Part shown: positions 10-63,597 of the stretch, piece after piece
Layout of the letters: the number at the start of each line of letters is the position of its first letter
Numbering within the stretch: the stretch's first letter is position 1
IMG/VR virus record: IMGVR_UViG_3300017987_000006
Span: 62,001-126,000 of that record
DNA length: 64,000 nt
Source: a virus
Reading direction: 5' to 3' (one strand)
Position numbers and translations under genes: made by a program
Notes under the pieces: model-generated
The model's database searches: none
What the model was told of the DNA's origin: nothing
Seen by the model: the letters and a program-made list of their open reading frames with translations, nothing else

Positions 10-318
10 ATGGTTCCGGAGTTGCTGCAACCCGACAAGGGGCCCGGACGTGGCCCTCGTGGGGAAGAGGAGACCATGACGGCGGGGTCTGAGGACGAGG
101 CCGAGAAAAACCGGATGGGATATCTGAAGGACGCCTTCACCCAGTTCGATCCAGACGCCAAGAAGACGGGAAACGAGCTGAGGGGGCTGCTGGACGGTTT
201 TGGTCCCAAGGCCATCGTCTCCAAGGCCCAGGCGGAGGACGCTGCTACAAAGACAGGGTCTGCACGCCTTGGCGCATTCTCTGACGAGCTGAAGAAGATC
301 TACGCCGCAGCGCAGTGA
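10..318 (+). CDS. Small hypothetical protein, possibly 5'-truncated
   Basis: The frame is open back to the first base of the window, so this may be the 3' end of a longer gene. If it starts inside the window, the ATG at 76 is the better choice because GAGGAG lies just upstream; that gives about 80 residues. The protein is highly charged and probably helical, and its C-terminal half is Lys/Ala rich. No family was recognised. It lies 3 bases upstream of the sigma-factor gene and is probably cotranscribed with it. Confidence 0.55.
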   Translation: MVPELLQPDKGPGRGPRGEEETMTAGSEDEAEKNRMGYLKDAFTQFDPDAKKTGNELRGLLDGFGPKAIVSKAQAEDAATKTGSARLGAFSDELKKIYAAAQ

Positions 319-14036: not shown

Positions 14037-14759
14037 GTGAACACAGAGTCATTCTTCGACGAGTTGGAGAAGATAGCGTTCGACTGGGCGGATATGAATC
14101 GGGTGCTGCGTTTGAGTAGAGCTCGGACGCTTCGACTTCCACAACGTCTACTTCCGGTAGGGCCGATGTCTGTCCCCGCGGCCTCCAAACCTTACCAACT
14201 AGCTGCCGCTAGGGAAGCCGTTGAAACTGGACAGATTCCTGCGGCACTAGGCGACGCATCGATGCGGTTTGTCGGGCAGACGAGCGGCAAGGCCCTAATG
14301 CCGAAGGGAGGCGTGGTCCGGCAACTGGAGCAGCGTGGGATGCCGTCTGGAGTGGTCAAAGGCAGGGAGCGCAAGGCCATGGAGTCTCTGTTACGGGGAC
14401 ATGAACTCGATGAGGTCACCTTGGGTGCGAAGAAGTTCGACCCGGAGTACACCATAAAGACGACGCACGTTAGTCCCGACGTGGTTCTGAGGGAGAGAAA
14501 CAGGCTTCTGACGATGCCGCCTGAGGTGCGTCCGGCTGTCACAGAGGCTATGTCACCTATCCGCTCGGTGCTTGATACACCTGCTCTGGAGCGGGCGACC
14601 AGAACCGTTTCTGGGAAGGGGCTAGATTATGGCAGTGGCCCGCGGTTGAGCCGTCACGCGCGCAAACGGATCTCCAAAAGGATGAAGGAGATCACGAAGA
14701 GCCCAGATACTCCGTCAGCCACAGAGATGATCAGAGAGGCAATGGAAGGGGCAGCGTAG
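14037..14759 (+). CDS. Putative capsid-cargo protein with N-terminal FFDELEKIA motif
   Basis: A 240-residue basic protein. The GTG at 14037 is chosen because it places the motif SFFDELEKIA at residues 5-14, the same position as in six other proteins of this window. The body is Arg/Lys/Thr-rich and shows no recognisable enzyme domain; residues 195-225 are strongly basic (LSRHARKRISKRMKE). It lies alone among baseplate and fibre genes, after a non-coding gap. By analogy with T4 internal proteins, the motif may target it into the prohead. Function of the body unknown. Confidence 0.65.
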   Translation: MNTESFFDELEKIAFDWADMNRVLRLSRARTLRLPQRLLPVGPMSVPAASKPYQLAAAREAVETGQIPAALGDASMRFVGQTSGKALMPKGGVVRQLEQRGMPSGVVKGRERKAMESLLRGHELDEVTLGAKKFDPEYTIKTTHVSPDVVLRERNRLLTMPPEVRPAVTEAMSPIRSVLDTPALERATRTVSGKGLDYGSGPRLSRHARKRISKRMKEITKSPDTPSATEMIREAMEGAA

Positions 14760-37812: not shown

Positions 37813-38135
37813 TGTCCAAGACCTGGTCCTGGCTGAAGAAGAACTGGATGTGGTTGATCGCCCCCGTGACGATCGCCGTCCTCGTCATCCTCTACCTCAT
37901 GGGGTGGAGACCAGAGAAGAAGGACGACGTGGACTCCGTCACCCCGGACGATGCCGCCGACCAGGCCGTGGAGGACACCAACACGGCGCACGATGAGCGG
38001 GAGAAGGCCATCAAGGAGCTGGAGGCGGAGCATCGCGAGAAGCTCAGCGAGATGACGGAGGAGCAGCTCGAGGAGTTCGAGGAAGTCAAGAAGAAGCCCA
38101 TAGACGAGGTAGCTGCATGGATAGACAGTCTGTAG
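37812..38135 (+). CDS. Membrane-anchored coiled-coil protein, i-spanin-like
   Basis: A 107-residue protein. The N-terminus is basic (KTWSWLKKNW), then a transmembrane helix spans residues 14-31 (LIAPVTIAVLVILYLMGW). The rest is a highly charged helix with heptads (DEREKAIKELEAEHREKLSE). This is the topology of inner-membrane spanins. The ATG lies in TGATG after the holin-like gene, and its 3' end overlaps the next gene. Candidate outer partner: the signal-peptide protein at 41.58 kb. Confidence 0.55.
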   Translation: MSKTWSWLKKNWMWLIAPVTIAVLVILYLMGWRPEKKDDVDSVTPDDAADQAVEDTNTAHDEREKAIKELEAEHREKLSEMTEEQLEEFEEVKKKPIDEVAAWIDSL

Positions 38136-38596
38136 CATCTTTCCTGGATGAGCTAGAAAAGATCGGTGCCACCGTCTTGATGAAGAGCTTGTCCCCTGCG
38201 GCCAAGCGCCTCATGCGCAAGGCAACGGGATTTACCGGATTGGCGGAAAAGGCGCAACCGGCGGCGGCCGCACAGATGCGGAGGGCCTTGGCGGGCCAGG
38301 GTCTTCACACTGAGGCCAGCATTCGTGCCGGTGGAGCTGGTCGGATAGCCAAGCGTCAAAGCCGTCGAGCGTACGATGAGGTCTTGAAGAGGCAGGGCCG
38401 GGTGTATCAAGGTACGCCGGGGTTGCAACAGCAGCTCGCGGCGATTCCTGGGCATCCGGGAACCATCACCAGAACACCGGCACGTATCGTTCCGCGCAGC
38501 GGTGTTTCGACCGTTAAACCTTCAGACGCGACTAGATCTGTAGCAGTTCCAAGACCTCAGCTGGCAGATCCATACGCTGCCACCGTTCTGGCGTAG
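38117..38596 (+). CDS. Putative capsid-cargo protein with FLDELEKIG motif
   Basis: A 159-residue very basic protein rich in Arg, Ala, Pro and Gly. Residues 8-17 (SFLDELEKIG) match the shared motif. The body has a helical basic part (residues 20-70, AAKRLMRKATGF) and a flexible Pro/Thr-rich tail. A small, basic, low-complexity protein behind a targeting motif resembles T4-type internal proteins that coat packaged DNA. The ATG overlaps the upstream gene by 19 bases. Function of the body unknown. Confidence 0.65.
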   Translation: MDRQSVASFLDELEKIGATVLMKSLSPAAKRLMRKATGFTGLAEKAQPAAAAQMRRALAGQGLHTEASIRAGGAGRIAKRQSRRAYDEVLKRQGRVYQGTPGLQQQLAAIPGHPGTITRTPARIVPRSGVSTVKPSDATRSVAVPRPQLADPYAATVLA

Positions 38597-38599
38597 ATC

Positions 38600-40012
38600 A
38601 TGAATCGGAGAACTTTAAGATCGCTGTGGGAGGAGCTGGAGAAGTGCGCGGCTAAGCTAAAGACGGAACTTCTGCCGCACCAAGAGCGTGTGGTGCAGAA
38701 GATCAAGGGTCAGCGCGGACTTGTCGTCGCCCACGGTCTCGGTTCCGGAAAGACTCTTTCCTCCGTCGCCGCCGCGGTACAGCTCAAGCCCGATAGTACC
38801 AAGGTGCTCGTCCCCGCATCCCTGCAGGAGAACTACAAGAAGGAGATGCGGAAGCACGTCAAGGGCAGGCTGCCAGGCAAGCTGAAGGTGGAGAGCCTGC
38901 AGAACTACGCTTCCAAGGGCCTGATACCAAACAGCGATCTCCTCGTTGTAGATGAGGCGCACCGCGCACGCAACCCCGCGTCGAAGACCTATCAGATCTT
39001 GCATGACGCGGACAACAAGAAGCGACTGCTGCTGACGGCCTCCCCAACCTACAACCGGCCGGCGGACGTGGCGACGTTGGTGAACCTGGCGGCGGGGGAC
39101 AAGGTCCTGCCGGCGGGGGCTGAGTTCGACAAGAGGTACATCGCCAAGCCGGCCAAGGGTGTCTGGTCTCTGCTCCCATTCACTCGCAAACGTCCGGGGC
39201 TGGTCCGCAAACACGAGCTGAAGAAGCCGTTGCAGAAGTGGGTCGACTACCACAAGGCGGAGGGGGCGGACTTCCCGGACACCAGTGAGGAGCGGGTGGT
39301 CACCAGGATGTCCAAGCGGCAGACGCAGCTGCACGATCATGCTTGGGGCAAGCTGCCGCTGATGACTAGGATCAGATTGAGGCGCGGTCTCCCTCCTGGT
39401 AAGGAAGACCTGCCCAAGATGAACTTCTTCATGGGGCAGTCGCGCCAGATCGCGAGCACGGAATCACCCTTCACCAAGGGACAGGCCGAGACATCGCCCA
39501 AGCTCGTCCGCGCGGTGGACGATCTATCAGCGAGGACCGCCGAGAACCCACGGCATCGGGGTTTGGTGTACTCCAACTACCTGGGCACGCTACGTGACTA
39601 CTCGCGAGAGCTGGAGAAGCGGAAGATCCCGCATGCAGCGTTCACGGGAGCACAGTCCCAGAAAACACGCAAGCAGCTGGTCCGGGACTACAACAAGGGC
39701 AAGCTGAAGGCGTTGCTGGTATCCTCCGCCGGAGGCGAGGGGCTCGATCTGAAGGGTACTCGGCAGGTGCAGGTGCTCGAGCCGCACTGGAATGAGGAGA
39801 AGCTGAAGCAGGTCATCGGTCGAGCAGTGCGGCATGGATCTCACAGCCACTTGCCCGCAGAGGAGAGACATGTCAACATCCAGAGGTTCGAGGCAAAACC
39901 ACGTCACGGTGGGCGAGGAGTCGAGCAGGTGCTGTATGATACGGCAGAGGACAAGGAACGCTTGAACCAGGAGCTGCGTGGGTTGATCACCAAGGGACAA
40001 CGTCATGGGTAG
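38600..40012 (+). CDS. SF2/SNF2-type helicase with N-terminal cargo-like motif
   Basis: A 470-residue DNA-translocase-type ATPase. Walker A GLGSGKT is at residues 46-52, DEAH at 118-121, the motif III-like TASP at 146-149, motif V (SSAGGEGLDLKG) near 375, and motif VI (QVIGRAVRHGSH) near 405. These are strong SF2 signatures closest to SNF2. Residues 8-17 (SLWEELEKCA) match the cargo motif. It is separate from the replication operon and lies among the cargo genes, which argues for packaging and ejection rather than ordinary replication. SNF2 domains are known in phage polyvalent proteins. Confidence 0.8.
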   Translation: MNRRTLRSLWEELEKCAAKLKTELLPHQERVVQKIKGQRGLVVAHGLGSGKTLSSVAAAVQLKPDSTKVLVPASLQENYKKEMRKHVKGRLPGKLKVESLQNYASKGLIPNSDLLVVDEAHRARNPASKTYQILHDADNKKRLLLTASPTYNRPADVATLVNLAAGDKVLPAGAEFDKRYIAKPAKGVWSLLPFTRKRPGLVRKHELKKPLQKWVDYHKAEGADFPDTSEERVVTRMSKRQTQLHDHAWGKLPLMTRIRLRRGLPPGKEDLPKMNFFMGQSRQIASTESPFTKGQAETSPKLVRAVDDLSARTAENPRHRGLVYSNYLGTLRDYSRELEKRKIPHAAFTGAQSQKTRKQLVRDYNKGKLKALLVSSAGGEGLDLKGTRQVQVLEPHWNEEKLKQVIGRAVRHGSHSHLPAEERHVNIQRFEAKPRHGGRGVEQVLYDTAEDKERLNQELRGLITKGQRHG

Positions 40013-40250
40013 ACGATCTATGAGAGCGTTCTGGGGGGAGCTGGAGAGCCTGGAGAAGCAAGCGGAGACCCACAAGCTAGGTGCTATGTACCACGGCTCT
40101 CCGCGCAAGTTGGGCATACTGAAGCCTCGAGACGAGCATGGAGACCCACGCGTTGTAAAGCAGCGGCGGTGGTCAGAGAAGGATGATCGGGGGGACCTGG
40201 AACTGGAGCGAGGCGCGTGTGCCTCTGGCTATGGCGCAGCAAGCTCGTAA
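40005..40250 (+). CDS. Short protein with cargo-like motif and HGSP fragment
   Basis: An 81-residue protein. Residues 8-20 (AFWGELESLEKQA) follow the shared N-terminal pattern. Residues 28-50 (AMYHGSPRKLGILKPRDEHG) match the opening of HGSP-type proteins, some of which are ADP-ribosyltransferase-like. The rest of such a domain is missing, and the tail from residue 53 looks like out-of-frame sequence. It is probably a truncated or frameshifted remnant. It overlaps the preceding helicase gene by 8 bases and the next gene by 20. Confidence 0.5.
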   Translation: MGRRSMRAFWGELESLEKQAETHKLGAMYHGSPRKLGILKPRDEHGDPRVVKQRRWSEKDDRGDLELERGACASGYGAASS

Positions 40251-41058
40251 GCGGAGCCTCAACATCGATGAGGCTCTGTGGGAGCTGGAGAAGAAGGCGC
40301 GGTGCATCGTGAAGTCGGAATACCTTGCCTGGAAGAAAAAGCGTGAGAAGCAGCTTGGTAGACCAATGACCTTCAAAGAGCTGGACACGGAGTTGTACAC
40401 CAGCCGTACGCCTCCTTGGGAGAAGAGGGCCTACAAGCTCCAAGGCAAGACCGAAGTCCAGGGCATCCCAATCTCCATTGAGAACCGCAAGGGCTCTGTC
40501 CGAAAGGGCACGGACTCGGACGGTAACGAGTGGAAGACTAAGATGCTCCTACCGTACGGATACGTCCGCGGCACGCGCGGAGCGGATGGCGAGCCGGTAG
40601 ACGCCTACGTCGGCCCGGACAAGGAAGCTCCGGACGCCTACGTTGTACACCAGAGGGATAAAGAGACCGGGAAGTACGACGAGGACAAGATCTTTTTTGG
40701 CATGAAATCCAAGAAGGATGTCAAGGAGGCGTTCTTGAAACACTACGACAGTCCAAAGTTCCTTGGGCCGATATCCCGTGTTCCTGTCGAGCGGCTAAAG
40801 GAGCTCATCACCTCCAAGCGCCGCCTCGTGAAAATCTCCGCGGCCAAAGATCAAAAGAACAAGGCCCTCCACTTCGCCCGCAAGGCAGGCCCTGGCCTCG
40901 GCGGCCTGGCCGGCCTGGGCATCGGCGCGGTCCTGGGAGCCCGCCGCGGAAAGCTCCTTAAGGGAGCCATCGCGGGTCTGGGAACCGGGGCAACACTGGG
41001 GTGGGTGCCGGACATGGCCGCCAACGCCCGCGAGGCCATCAGGAAGGTGAGTAAATGA
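40231..41058 (+). CDS. Polyvalent-type protein with inorganic-pyrophosphatase-like domain
   Basis: A 275-residue protein. ATG 40231 is preferred over 40183 because it gives the same KRSLNIDEALWELEKKA opening as its neighbours. Residues 68-195 match the phage polyvalent-protein pyrophosphatase-like domain: QGKTEVQGIPISIENRKGSV, KTKMLLPYGYVRGT, VDAYVGPDKEAPDAYVVHQ and a closing FLKHYDSPKFLG. Residues 215-262 are Gly-rich and hydrophobic, suggesting two membrane-inserting helices. The domain family is known from injected polyvalent proteins. Activity itself is not demonstrated. It overlaps the next gene by four bases. Confidence 0.75.
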   Translation: MAQQARKRSLNIDEALWELEKKARCIVKSEYLAWKKKREKQLGRPMTFKELDTELYTSRTPPWEKRAYKLQGKTEVQGIPISIENRKGSVRKGTDSDGNEWKTKMLLPYGYVRGTRGADGEPVDAYVGPDKEAPDAYVVHQRDKETGKYDEDKIFFGMKSKKDVKEAFLKHYDSPKFLGPISRVPVERLKELITSKRRLVKISAAKDQKNKALHFARKAGPGLGGLAGLGIGAVLGARRGKLLKGAIAGLGTGATLGWVPDMAANAREAIRKVSK

Positions 41059-41585
41059 TCGCCTCGTTCTTCGATGAGCTGGAGAAGATAGCGCTGAGCC
41101 AGGGCTTACTCACCAGGGCGTACACCAAGGCCACACATCTGGCGGAGCGGTACGGTCGGCAGGGTGATAAATGGCGGCAGCGTAAAGGGTTCCCGAAGAA
41201 GAAGCTCAAAGACCCCCAGCGCTCGGAGAAGGCGTATAAGAAGGCGCGTAGGTACAGCGGCATAGGTCAGGCGATCAAGAAGAAGCTCGAGGAGGAGCCG
41301 CGTTCTCTGAAGCTGCGGAACGTCAGCCGCGGAGAGCACAAACACTTCCGCCAGATCTTCGAGACGCGCCAAGCGGTGAAGCAGAAGGCTGAACAAGAGG
41401 CGAAGAGGAAGATGAGAGCAGAAGTCGAGCGCCAGGTTCAGAAGAGACTCCTCCGCGAAACAAATCCTCGGGAGTACGCGTACCAGTTGTGGCGCGGCCC
41501 ACATACTCCAGACGATGCGATCTCCAAGAAGATGTTTGCGAAAAGGATGAAGCACCACGACGCTTCGATAAAGGCTACTAAATGA
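41055..41585 (+). CDS. Basic putative capsid-cargo protein with FFDELEKIA motif
   Basis: A 176-residue, strongly basic protein (Lys/Arg throughout). Residues 4-13 (SFFDELEKIA) are nearly identical to residues 5-14 of the product at 14.04 kb. Residues 85-145 are helical with many Lys, Arg, Gln and Glu (AVKQKAEQEAKRKMRAE), suited to binding nucleic acid. No enzyme motif. The ATG overlaps the upstream stop, and the gene overlaps the next by four bases. A DNA-coating internal head protein is the most natural reading, by inference. Confidence 0.65.
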   Translation: MIASFFDELEKIALSQGLLTRAYTKATHLAERYGRQGDKWRQRKGFPKKKLKDPQRSEKAYKKARRYSGIGQAIKKKLEEEPRSLKLRNVSRGEHKHFRQIFETRQAVKQKAEQEAKRKMRAEVERQVQKRLLRETNPREYAYQLWRGPHTPDDAISKKMFAKRMKHHDASIKATK

Positions 41586-59907: not shown

Positions 59908-61140
59908 ATGATCAACGCCCTGCTGGATATGTACGACGACCCCTCCGGCATCGTTCTCAAAGAGAAGGTCGCTTCGCTGGAGGATGTACCGGAGTTTATC
60001 AAGCAGGCTGAGCGCCTGGACCGAGAGACGCTGGACAAGCTACCTGATGACGTCTTCGCCCTGGTCATGCTGGACAGCGGAGACAAGATGCGTAAGTACG
60101 CCTGCACCGACAAGGGAAACACCGCCCTCTCAGTGCTCTACTTCATGGAGACCAAGAACAACCTTCCGGCGGAGGCTCAGAAGACAGCGGCGAAGAATCT
60201 GATGGAGGCCTGTCGATGGTACAGCATGGAGCCCCCCGCCGAACTTGAGAAGACCGCCCTTCTCGGCCCGGCGATGGGAGCAGTAACCCTTGGCATGGGG
60301 GCAATGGAAGGCAACCGCCGATACAAGCAGCGCAAGGCGGCGCTTCAGCAGGGTGCAACGGGGTCGCAGATCATGAAGATGAGCGAGATGGGAGCCAACA
60401 TCATGCCCAAGACCAAGGTACCTGAGAAGACGGCCTCCCTGAAGCCCCACGTCGACATCACGGGCAAGCACCCACCGCAGCAAGTAACCCAGGAGACCGG
60501 AAGGTTCTACGCGCTCACCAAGGAGGGTGGGGCCCGATACCCAATCGACACCATGGGTCAAGTCCAGAAGGCGATCACGTATTTCGAGAAGTACGCCGAG
60601 CGCTTCACACCTCCTGATCGCCACCTCTTCTGTGCGAACGTGTCTCGGAGGGCGGACGAGCTCGGCGTACCCGTGACTGAGAAGATCGCCAAGTACGGAG
60701 CGTCCACCATGGCCCAGGATGCCCCCGTAGCGATTTATCAGCGCCAGAGGATGTTCCGTGAGGGGACCAGCGAGCACGGCCTACTGCAAGAGATGCGCGA
60801 GAAGTGTGCCTCGATCAAGCCCGAGTTCCTGGCGGTCACGCTGGAGAACTTTGATAAGCAGGCGGGGCTGGACAGGCTGTGGGACAACGGTCTGCCAGAT
60901 CCGTACTACTCGATCTTCGGTGTGGAGAAGCGAGCTGAGTACAGCTTCACCACCGCGAACGACACGATCAACGAAACACGCTTGAAACGCTGCGCCAAGG
61001 AGTGTAAGAAGCAGGTCCAAGATCTGTTCAACGAGGATGTGGCGGAGGAATTTTCCAAGGACCCGGTGCAGATTTTCGATTCCCTTCCCCTGGACCAAAA
61101 GCGTATTATCATGCGACTGGCATCCCAGGTCGAAGAATAA
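59908..61140 (+). CDS. Head-region protein, unknown family
   Basis: A 410-residue mostly helical protein. Around residue 112 there is PPAELEKTALLGPAMGAV, which resembles the cargo motif but is internal and followed by a Gly/Ala-rich segment. Residues 200-260 contain YPIDTMGQVQKAITYFEKYA and PPDRHLFCANVSRRADELG. The C-terminus is charged. It is the first plus gene after the divergent gap and precedes genes that look like head components. A scaffold or internal-core role is plausible. Confidence 0.6.
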   Translation: MINALLDMYDDPSGIVLKEKVASLEDVPEFIKQAERLDRETLDKLPDDVFALVMLDSGDKMRKYACTDKGNTALSVLYFMETKNNLPAEAQKTAAKNLMEACRWYSMEPPAELEKTALLGPAMGAVTLGMGAMEGNRRYKQRKAALQQGATGSQIMKMSEMGANIMPKTKVPEKTASLKPHVDITGKHPPQQVTQETGRFYALTKEGGARYPIDTMGQVQKAITYFEKYAERFTPPDRHLFCANVSRRADELGVPVTEKIAKYGASTMAQDAPVAIYQRQRMFREGTSEHGLLQEMREKCASIKPEFLAVTLENFDKQAGLDRLWDNGLPDPYYSIFGVEKRAEYSFTTANDTINETRLKRCAKECKKQVQDLFNEDVAEEFSKDPVQIFDSLPLDQKRIIMRLASQVEE

Positions 61141-61912: not shown

Positions 61913-62719
61913 GTGTCCCGGGACTACGAAGCTGAGCTCCGGGAGGTCCTGGAAAAGACGGGTCAGTCAGCCGGCATCACCAACACGACGGACGAGTCGG
62001 CCGAACACGTCGAAACCACGTCTCCGGAGACAGAGCACACGGAGGCGGAGAAGGTTGTTGTTACGCCCTTCTCCGCCGCCAAGCTCTTTGTGCACCACGA
62101 CACACATCCTCTGGTCTTGGACATCAAGCTGATGGATCAGTATGGGCTCTCGTGGTTCGAGTGGGAGCCCACGACGTTGTGGCGAGAGATCATGGACGAT
62201 TTTCGGACGCCCTCGATCTCGGACCACGTCAAGAGCAAGATCCAAGCCCTACGTACGACGCACATCACAGATAAGGCGTTCGCGAAGTGGGAGACGTTCT
62301 CCGTCATCACGCAGGCACTGAACAACAACATTCCAGACTTCGAGATCATGCGGAGGCCCACCATCTCCCAGCTGTTTGCGGCAGTGGACATGATGACTAT
62401 GGTTCGCAACGATGTCCCGTTCAGCGAGGAGATCGAGTACTGGTGCGGGGCCGCACTGCTGGATGCGGGGGTGGTGTGTGCCCCCCAGCCCATCGCTTTC
62501 TGCCAAGACGCAATCCTGGAGATTCAGGAAGAATTGGGAGTAGAGGTTGACCCAGCTCCCGTAAAGGAGAAATATAGACTATTGCTGTCTGTCCCCGCGG
62601 AGGAGGTGGAGCTCAGGGAGAACCCGGTGGACATCCAGGTGATGAAGCTGATCATTGCCAGGGACTACCTTTCTTTGCGTCGCGGCCAGATGAAAGAACA
62701 GCTGAGGGCCCTACGATGA
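61913..62719 (+). CDS. Head-region hypothetical protein
   Basis: A 268-residue protein with a GTG start. Residues 1-45 are acidic and disordered. Residues 60-265 are helical, with SWFEWEPTTLWREIMDD and a WCGAALLDAGVVC pair of Cys. It overlaps the next gene by four bases. No family recognised; position suggests a connector, scaffold or packaging-related protein. Confidence 0.6.
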   Translation: MSRDYEAELREVLEKTGQSAGITNTTDESAEHVETTSPETEHTEAEKVVVTPFSAAKLFVHHDTHPLVLDIKLMDQYGLSWFEWEPTTLWREIMDDFRTPSISDHVKSKIQALRTTHITDKAFAKWETFSVITQALNNNIPDFEIMRRPTISQLFAAVDMMTMVRNDVPFSEEIEYWCGAALLDAGVVCAPQPIAFCQDAILEIQEELGVEVDPAPVKEKYRLLLSVPAEEVELRENPVDIQVMKLIIARDYLSLRRGQMKEQLRALR

Positions 62720-63597
62720 ATGCATACAAGACCCTGGCCTTTGTAGACGAGCTGGAGAAGCTGGCCCTCGCACCTTCGTTGGTCCAGCGGGCCCTACGGT
62801 CTGGTGTCGGCCGTGCTGTCGTCAGCAACGTCCCGAAGGTCTGGGGCTCTGGTTTCGGGCGCGCGGCAGCGGGAGCCCTGCCTGGGGCGGCCATAGGTGC
62901 TGTGGCAGACCCGCAGGACAGTGTTCGGGGGGCAGTCCTGGGCGGTCTTGCTGGAGCTGGAGCTGGCTATGCATCACCCCTGCTCACGGCTGGGGGTCGC
63001 GCTCGTGCTAGAGAGGCCCTGAAGCAGTGGGGCAGGGAACAGAAGCACTCCTTCGTTGGTGGTGAACTCCCCATCAAAAAAAGCATGAAGCCGGAAGAAA
63101 TCGCGAAACTTCGATCTGCGGAGAAGGCCGGGCTGACTAGTCTGCCGGGCGTAGTCAAGGGGATGGCAAAGAGGCCGCTACAGACGATGAAGGCTGGTTG
63201 GCAACACGCTGGAGGTCTGGGCAAGGCTATGATCGTGGGGGATGTGGCGCTGCAGGCTCCGGGCCTTGTAGACCCAACCACCCCAGAAGGAACGGGGGAG
63301 AAGGCCCTGCGGATGCTCGGAGGGACAGCAGGATTTCTTGCCGGAGGAAAGCTGCCGATGTTGGCTAGCCTGGCCCCCATGGCCGGGCTGGCGTACCTCG
63401 GCGGGAAGGCTGGTCGCGGGATCGATGTGTTGACAGGCGAGAGAGCAAAGAAAAAGAAGATGATGACTGCGGCGCAGCAGGCCGAAGCCGACAAGTTTTT
63501 GCGGGTCAGGCCTACTACTGCTCTCGCTCAGCGGGAGGCGCGGAAACTCGTCCCGGCCGGGTACATCCCGGCTGGGTACGGACCGGGGGTTGTCTGA
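62716..63597 (+). CDS. Putative capsid-cargo protein with FVDELEKLA motif and Gly-rich helices
   Basis: A 293-residue protein. Residues 8-17 (AFVDELEKLA) match the shared motif. Residues 30-95 are Gly/Ala-rich and hydrophobic (AAAGALPGAAIGAV, GAVLGGLAGAGAGYASPLL), with a second such block at about 180-240. The C-terminus is basic, then Pro/Tyr-rich. The Gly-zipper helices could insert in a membrane, as in phage DNA-ejection proteins. It lies just before the portal-like gene, a place where internal and ejection proteins are often encoded. Confidence 0.65.
   Translation: MNAYKTLAFVDELEKLALAPSLVQRALRSGVGRAVVSNVPKVWGSGFGRAAAGALPGAAIGAVADPQDSVRGAVLGGLAGAGAGYASPLLTAGGRARAREALKQWGREQKHSFVGGELPIKKSMKPEEIAKLRSAEKAGLTSLPGVVKGMAKRPLQTMKAGWQHAGGLGKAMIVGDVALQAPGLVDPTTPEGTGEKALRMLGGTAGFLAGGKLPMLASLAPMAGLAYLGGKAGRGIDVLTGERAKKKKMMTAAQQAEADKFLRVRPTTALAQREARKLVPAGYIPAGYGPGVV

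Follow-up and report, generated by a model that had tools for sequence, protein, structure and literature searches.

The window analysed here is a stretch of 64,000 nucleotides, bases 62001-126000 of a virus record of 178,259 bases (G000). Seven genes in it, all on the + strand, encode proteins that share a short N-terminal pattern, and all seven N-termini are present as a sequence-only reading of this DNA had described them. The gene at 14037..14759, which has a GTG start within a longer frame, encodes a protein of 240 residues with no database family (tag SFFDELEKIA; N-terminus VNTESFFDELEKIAFDW). A basic protein of 159 residues, likewise without a database family, is encoded at 38117..38596 (tag SFLDELEKIG; N-terminus MDRQSVASFLDELEKIGATV). 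The 470-residue product of 38600..40012 (tag SLWEELEKCA; N-terminus MNRRTLRSLWEELEKCAAKL) is an SNF2/helicase protein that matches Pfam SNF2 and Helicase_C, phrog_62 and, by tblastn at 37.6%, gp217 of the cultured Salmonella phage Arash; the tag lies outside the helicase core, the alignment with gp217 beginning at query residue 23. The short ORF at 40005..40250 (N-terminus MGRRSMRAFWGELESLEKQAE) has no family match. Its tag, AFWGELESLEKQA, was called degenerate in the sequence-only reading, with which we agree, and still ends in LEKQA. This ORF contains a YHGSP stretch, overlaps the InPase gene described next and is possibly a decayed or frameshifted cargo gene. The gene at 40231..41058, with a start in frame within ORF 40183, encodes an InPase-domain protein (Pfam PF18823, E 1.2e-41; N-terminus MAQQARKRSLNIDEALWELEKKA) bearing the divergent tag ALWELEKKA; its homologue in the relative G007, 62% identical, carries the full tag RFFDELEKIG. 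A Lys/Arg-rich protein of 176 residues with no family is encoded at 41055..41585 (tag SFFDELEKIA; N-terminus MIASFFDELEKIALSQ), and a protein of 293 residues with a weak glycine-zipper match at 62716..63597 (tag AFVDELEKLA; N-terminus MNAYKTLAFVDELEKLALAP).

Two other features of the window, both on the + strand, are related to this set. At 274..315, the end of an ORF that terminates at 318 and starts upstream of the window encodes a C-terminal tag-like sequence, GAFSDELKKIYAAAQ/AFSDELKKIYAAAQ. At 59908..61140, an untagged late protein of 410 residues contains five [DE]K[ILVTQM]A motifs, with KEKVA at residue 18, and is a candidate head protein. Scanning the whole record revealed at least four further tagged genes outside the window, at genome positions 60764, 151112, 160783 and 170421, and a tag-like copy, GFVDELAKIV, within the protein encoded at genome 61222.

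The record belongs to a tailed phage, as evidenced by PHROG matches to tail fibre, major tail proteins and the large terminase (phrog_675, E 1.1e-66). The record's head genes map to genome 143-161 kb, beyond the window. Their capsid protein, for which the AlphaFold model is of low confidence, has a profile match to the Bacillus phage G capsid protein gp27 (6wkk, E 2.3e-6) and a tblastn match (26% identity) to the annotated capsid protein (MCP) of Arash. Between the phrog_675 terminase gene (TerL) and the capsid gene, at genome 148304-150175, lies a gene whose product is likely a prohead protease, a prediction made from its fold: it has 51 BFVD structure matches at E<1e-3, many of them annotated prohead protease, the top named one being Bacillus phage G gp19; among solved structures in the PDB, T4 gp21 is matched weakly (E 0.67). 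At least 555 loci of this protease were matched in the wider clade. The G000 protease recurs unchanged on two IMG/VR contigs from other samples (L326 and L327), and thus this phage has been seen more than once. Separately, in the protease-like genes of L332, G002, G013, G014 and G021 the catalytic signature is the site of large insertions that look like inteins (in one, EYWS is followed by CFPDGAAVKTAHGRMPIEEV).

To characterise the tag, we compared metagenomic records, reading in full 13 genomes, i.e. G000 and 12 relatives, which range in G+C from 40 to 67%; genes in the relatives were called by a simple script of our own, and some starts may be wrong. The pattern first proposed, with E-L-E-K at its centre, required correction, the core being [ASG]-F-x-D-E-L-x-K-[IVL]-[AGS]. 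Its Lys is needed (99/100 tags), but the Glu preceding it is not essential (62/100). The F-D-E-L part is as conserved as K-I-A, and in 32 of 100 tags Gly, Ser or Lys takes the place of the final Ala. The search pattern set no residue at position -1, yet 97/103 cases have Ala, Ser or Gly there; conservation at this unselected position is independent evidence that the motif is real.

Hits were scored with a position-specific matrix at a threshold of at least 14 bits, the first 30 residues being taken as N-terminal. Among 249 called proteins of G000 we observed 7 N-terminal hits, against a mean of 0.005 when N-termini were shuffled. Across the 13 genomes, 99 hits were N-terminal by this criterion and 19 lay elsewhere, so that the density in the first 30 residues is 34 times that of the rest; shuffling the N-termini reduced the 99 to 0. 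The motif is short and rich in common residues, which is what chance or low-complexity convergence would exploit, but these counts, together with the unselected residue at -1 and the diversity of the proteins behind the tag described below, make it highly improbable that either such convergence or whole-protein paralogy accounts for the tag.

A signal at the nucleotide level can be dismissed as well: the codons of the tag vary synonymously (GAC/GAT, CTG/CTA/TTG/CTC, GAA/GAG) in genomes spanning the G+C range given above, indicating that it is the protein that is conserved and not the DNA. We then searched with a degenerate DNA pattern for FxDE[LF]EKIA. In IMG/VR it yielded 116 matches, 107 of which gave complete proteins (97 of them non-redundant), with the motif nearly always within the first ~15 residues. 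Applied to 257 Gb of bacterial and archaeal genomes, it yielded 60 matches, mostly deep inside proteins; the clear N-terminal ones resemble phage fragments (L137, L143), and a cellular motif is ruled out. The tag pattern is virus-specific and N-terminal. Its prevalence in the clade at large is uncertain: the strict tag is missing from some relatives that have the same protease, and the strict tag model matches 10 of 22 records chosen by their protease gene, a set that includes short fragments. We found no earlier description of such a tag in the literature.

The proteins that follow the tag are highly diverse. The 118 tagged proteins of the 13 genomes fall into 80 body families by blastp, 58 of which are singletons. 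Thus, the same short N-terminal peptide is found on unrelated bodies, as it is in capsid-targeting sequences (CTS) of the T4 type, and the earlier claim that the tag is shared and the fold is not holds well beyond the window; restriction of the motif to full-length homologues of single families, which would have spoken against that claim, is not what is observed. Some bodies could be named from Pfam: SNF2 helicase, InPase, LigD-type phosphoesterase, NUDIX, GNAT acetyltransferase, C92 papain-like, NlpC/P60, zinc peptidase and HNH. Each genome has roughly 4 to 19 tagged genes, and arrays of them are observed at 33-53 kb in G003 and at 16-30 kb in G020. One widespread tagged family (genome 60764, L026, L056, L074, L079, L112, L137) has a conserved RRPIRVxxML directly after the tag and may be a core protein of the head interior; when the gene at genome 60764 was first used as a query for homologues, no match was returned. 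Internal or C-terminal tags are seen at G021 68008, where one protein has two, at G014 65805 and 85058, G024 132230 and G003 53276, and at 274-315 of the window; these perhaps represent fused or polyprotein cargo.

The tag ends in Phi-E-K-x-A, where Phi is a hydrophobic residue; this motif, like the more general Phi-x-K-x-A, is abundant in proteins of the head module. Excluding tagged proteins and deriving expected counts, here and below, from composition only, we counted 98 Phi-E-K-x-A motifs within 9 kb of the capsid gene where 9 were expected, and 100 against 50 elsewhere. The motif is 11-13-fold over-represented, independently of the tag, in head-module proteins only, and among residue pairs in the proteins encoded close to the capsid gene K-x-A shows the strongest excess. 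The excess disappears when Lys is replaced by Arg, Ala by Gly or Ser, or when E and K are swapped (observed/expected near the capsid gene: Phi-x-R-x-A 0.87, Phi-x-K-x-G 1.03, Phi-x-K-x-S 1.06, Phi-K-E-x-A 0.58). When 59 loci were chosen for their protease gene and without regard to the tag, 287 motifs were found against 22.8 expected, with the consensus [MLFI]-E-K-[ITLQV]-A-[SA], Ser or Ala being favoured after the Ala. Late-strand untagged proteins of the 13 genomes have the head motif in their first 45 residues 251 times against 109 expected, while those of the opposite strand have it 73 times against 79. In phage G head proteins the counts are small (12 against 4.2 expected). The motif of the T4 head protease is L/I-x-E. 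Known protease motifs were also considered for the head proteins here and rejected, as L-x-E is only 1.18-fold enriched, as in the rest of the genome, and [SAG]-x-E stands at 0.99. The capsid protein itself has a conserved EKIA, with no hydrophobic residue before it; it lies in a strongly conserved stretch and we therefore do not count it as evidence of cleavage. Within cargo bodies, 28 protease-type sites were found against 36.7 expected, a weak avoidance on which we do not rely.

The distribution of the motif within the protease-like protein is informative. Of 52 non-redundant homologues, 50 have a Phi-x-K-x-A upstream of their catalytic signature, the nearest copy almost always 36-37 residues before it, and 38 have one within 45 residues after the core, while all 52 cores together contain 2 sites. 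In the AlphaFold model of the G000 protein, residues ~50-270 form a confident domain, and disorder covers residues 1-49 together with most of 271-357; sites 45, 278 and 310 lie in, or at the edge of, the disordered segments, and two protease sites are within a predicted helix. Sites that surround the folded enzyme yet avoid it form the pattern that self-processing would leave. From these sequence patterns and models, Phi-E-K-[ITLVQ]-A is probably the recognition site of the prohead protease, with a putative cut after the Ala. No cleavage specificity described for this prohead-protease group was found in the literature.

Could the motif act by docking alone? The tag would then bind a head or portal component and so retain the cargo, and Phi-x-K-x-A would be a binding repeat between head proteins. 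The 32 tags with a non-Ala ending, the internal and C-terminal copies, which a docking motif would tolerate, and the equal conservation of F-D-E-L and K-I-A all suit such a role. Against it, the motif flanks the protease core, is nearly absent within it and lies largely in disordered segments, and the demand for Lys over Arg and Ala over Gly/Ser, followed by Ser/Ala, is typical of protease sites. We consider docking alone unlikely. The non-Ala endings, taken with the lack of enrichment of Phi-x-K-x-G/S in head proteins, do indicate that a cut at this site is not needed for every tag.

Because the tag ends in a sequence repeated through the head proteins, it probably marks head cargo. The sequence-only reading had proposed a modular head-cargo tag that delivers enzymes into the host; its modular part is strongly supported by the diversity of the bodies, and the link to the head finds support in the Phi-E-K-x-A ending and in several further observations. 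Tagged genes are on the strand of the capsid gene, the late strand, in 97/100 cases against 1741/2910 (60%) for all genes. Tagged bodies are basic (median net charge per residue +0.076 against -0.004). The same capsid protein and protease-like protein are encoded in 24 of 26 tag-bearing records, and a homologue of the window helicase, untagged in this case, is abundant in Arash virions (PMC10585845). A tag that sends proteins to a late structure other than the head (tail, membrane or host target), or that acts in regulation or degradation with no tie to the head, would fit the several tagged bodies that are small, glycine-rich and possibly membrane-associated, and the proximity of some tagged genes to tail genes. 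However, the motif at the tag end is enriched in head-module proteins and not in the tail genes adjoining them, which have few or no Phi-x-K-x-A motifs, the bodies are basic, and InPase and SNF2 helicase are classes tied to packaged polyvalent proteins (PMC5512222). A role of this kind is improbable in our estimate, somewhat more so than docking alone.

The DELEK tag was not found in the cultured phages Arash, PA-SR01 and Bacillus phage G. Arash gp217, the untagged homologue of the window helicase, is represented in virions by 38 unique peptides and 1148 spectra (PMC10585845). In Arash, Phi-x-K-x-A occurs 38 times in head proteins against 5.8 expected, and 11 times in tail, polymerase and helicase proteins against 10.7. 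In its virion proteome, which lists 116 proteins, some possibly contaminants, proteins with at least 5 unique peptides have 81 sites against 40 expected, and the remaining proteins 22 against 27. Since Arash lacks the tag, it seems that a particular lineage added the tag ahead of an older site. Many late proteins of G043 and G047 (L410-L428), which are without the DELEK tag, have bare LxKxA N-termini, in agreement with the tag being a later addition. Elsewhere in the G000 record, a 2566-residue ORF (genome 129807-137507; L013:5807-13507) has an N-terminus resembling that of Arash gp206, which is annotated as RNA polymerase beta and is the most abundant protein of the Arash virion data; by this resemblance, its product is a possible virion RNA polymerase. 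The gene next to it carries a variant tag, AFLSELSEIEKQG.

The closest parallels are capsid-targeting sequences. In the T4 CTS, targeting residues come first and processing residues last, and internal proteins are cut by gp21 (PMC9026906). Like the T4 CTS, the tag is a short N-terminal propeptide on divergent mature proteins, with basic cargo that varies between related phages, and places targeting residues before a putative protease site (PMC9026906). It differs in sequence, in its protease motif (Phi-E-K-x-A) and in its far greater number of putative cargo families. For phage P1, 30 N-terminal residues of DarB are enough to direct a reporter to the capsid (PMC9024508); DarB itself is counted among the polyvalent proteins, in their methylase-SNF2 helicase group (PMC5512222). 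The window likewise contains an SNF2-type helicase with an N-terminal tag; unlike the P1 signal, which is described on DarB, one motif is here found on dozens of families. The tag is likely analogous to the T4 and P1 signals, with no claim to membership of the T4 type. In Salmonella phage SPN3US and phiKZ-like phages, propeptides are removed from many head proteins, some of them ejected, by the prohead protease gp245, and, as here, Ser is preferred at P1' (PMC10052503). SPN3US differs in that cleavage occurs after A-x-E and most propeptides are long, and the available portion of that source reports no shared short tag (PMC10052503). Polyvalent proteins, among whose domains are InPase and SNF2 ATPase, were predicted to be packaged and injected (PMC5512222). 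The sequence-only reading had assigned two window proteins to such classes: the InPase and SNF2 domains are indeed present, but polyvalent proteins have two or more disparate domains and, by Pfam and PHROG, each window protein has at most one functional domain. The text of Iyer et al. 2017 does not mention an "N-terminal motif" (PMC5512222).

We infer from these sequence patterns that the motif is, with fair though incomplete confidence, a capsid-targeting propeptide ending in a prohead protease site. Cargo proteins of unrelated fold would begin with ~10-25 residues that hold [ASG]-F-x-D-E-L-x-K-[IV]-[AGS]. Docking on some component inside the prohead would fall to F-x-D-E-L, which is probably helical, and L-E-K-I-A would serve as the protease site, the same one that litters presumed scaffold-like proteins, such as those encoded at L014:7254-8054 and L014:8377-9477, and the protease's own tails. 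During head maturation the prohead protease would trim the tag, and the trimmed cargo, free in the head, would exit with the DNA. A broader proposal, which we hold to be evenly balanced between right and wrong, is that in one clade of large, uncultivated phages a single readable, cleavable address tag, N-terminal and perhaps also internal or C-terminal, serves to load ~4-19 different cargo proteins in each phage, which between them represent scores of families, and that this tag evolved by elaborating a prohead-protease site, Phi-E-K-x-A, not described before.

Phage proteins that enter the host with the DNA are usually unknown before virion analysis. If the broader proposal is true, the cargo list for the whole clade, i.e. 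its injected set, would be readable from genomes alone, and dozens of unknown families would become candidate early host-takeover or counter-defence proteins. The tag would also constitute a delivery handle comparable to the T4 and P1 signals. Finally, Phi-E-K-x-A offers a cleavage rule open to test for this group of prohead proteases, one that would also apply to the cultured phage Arash.
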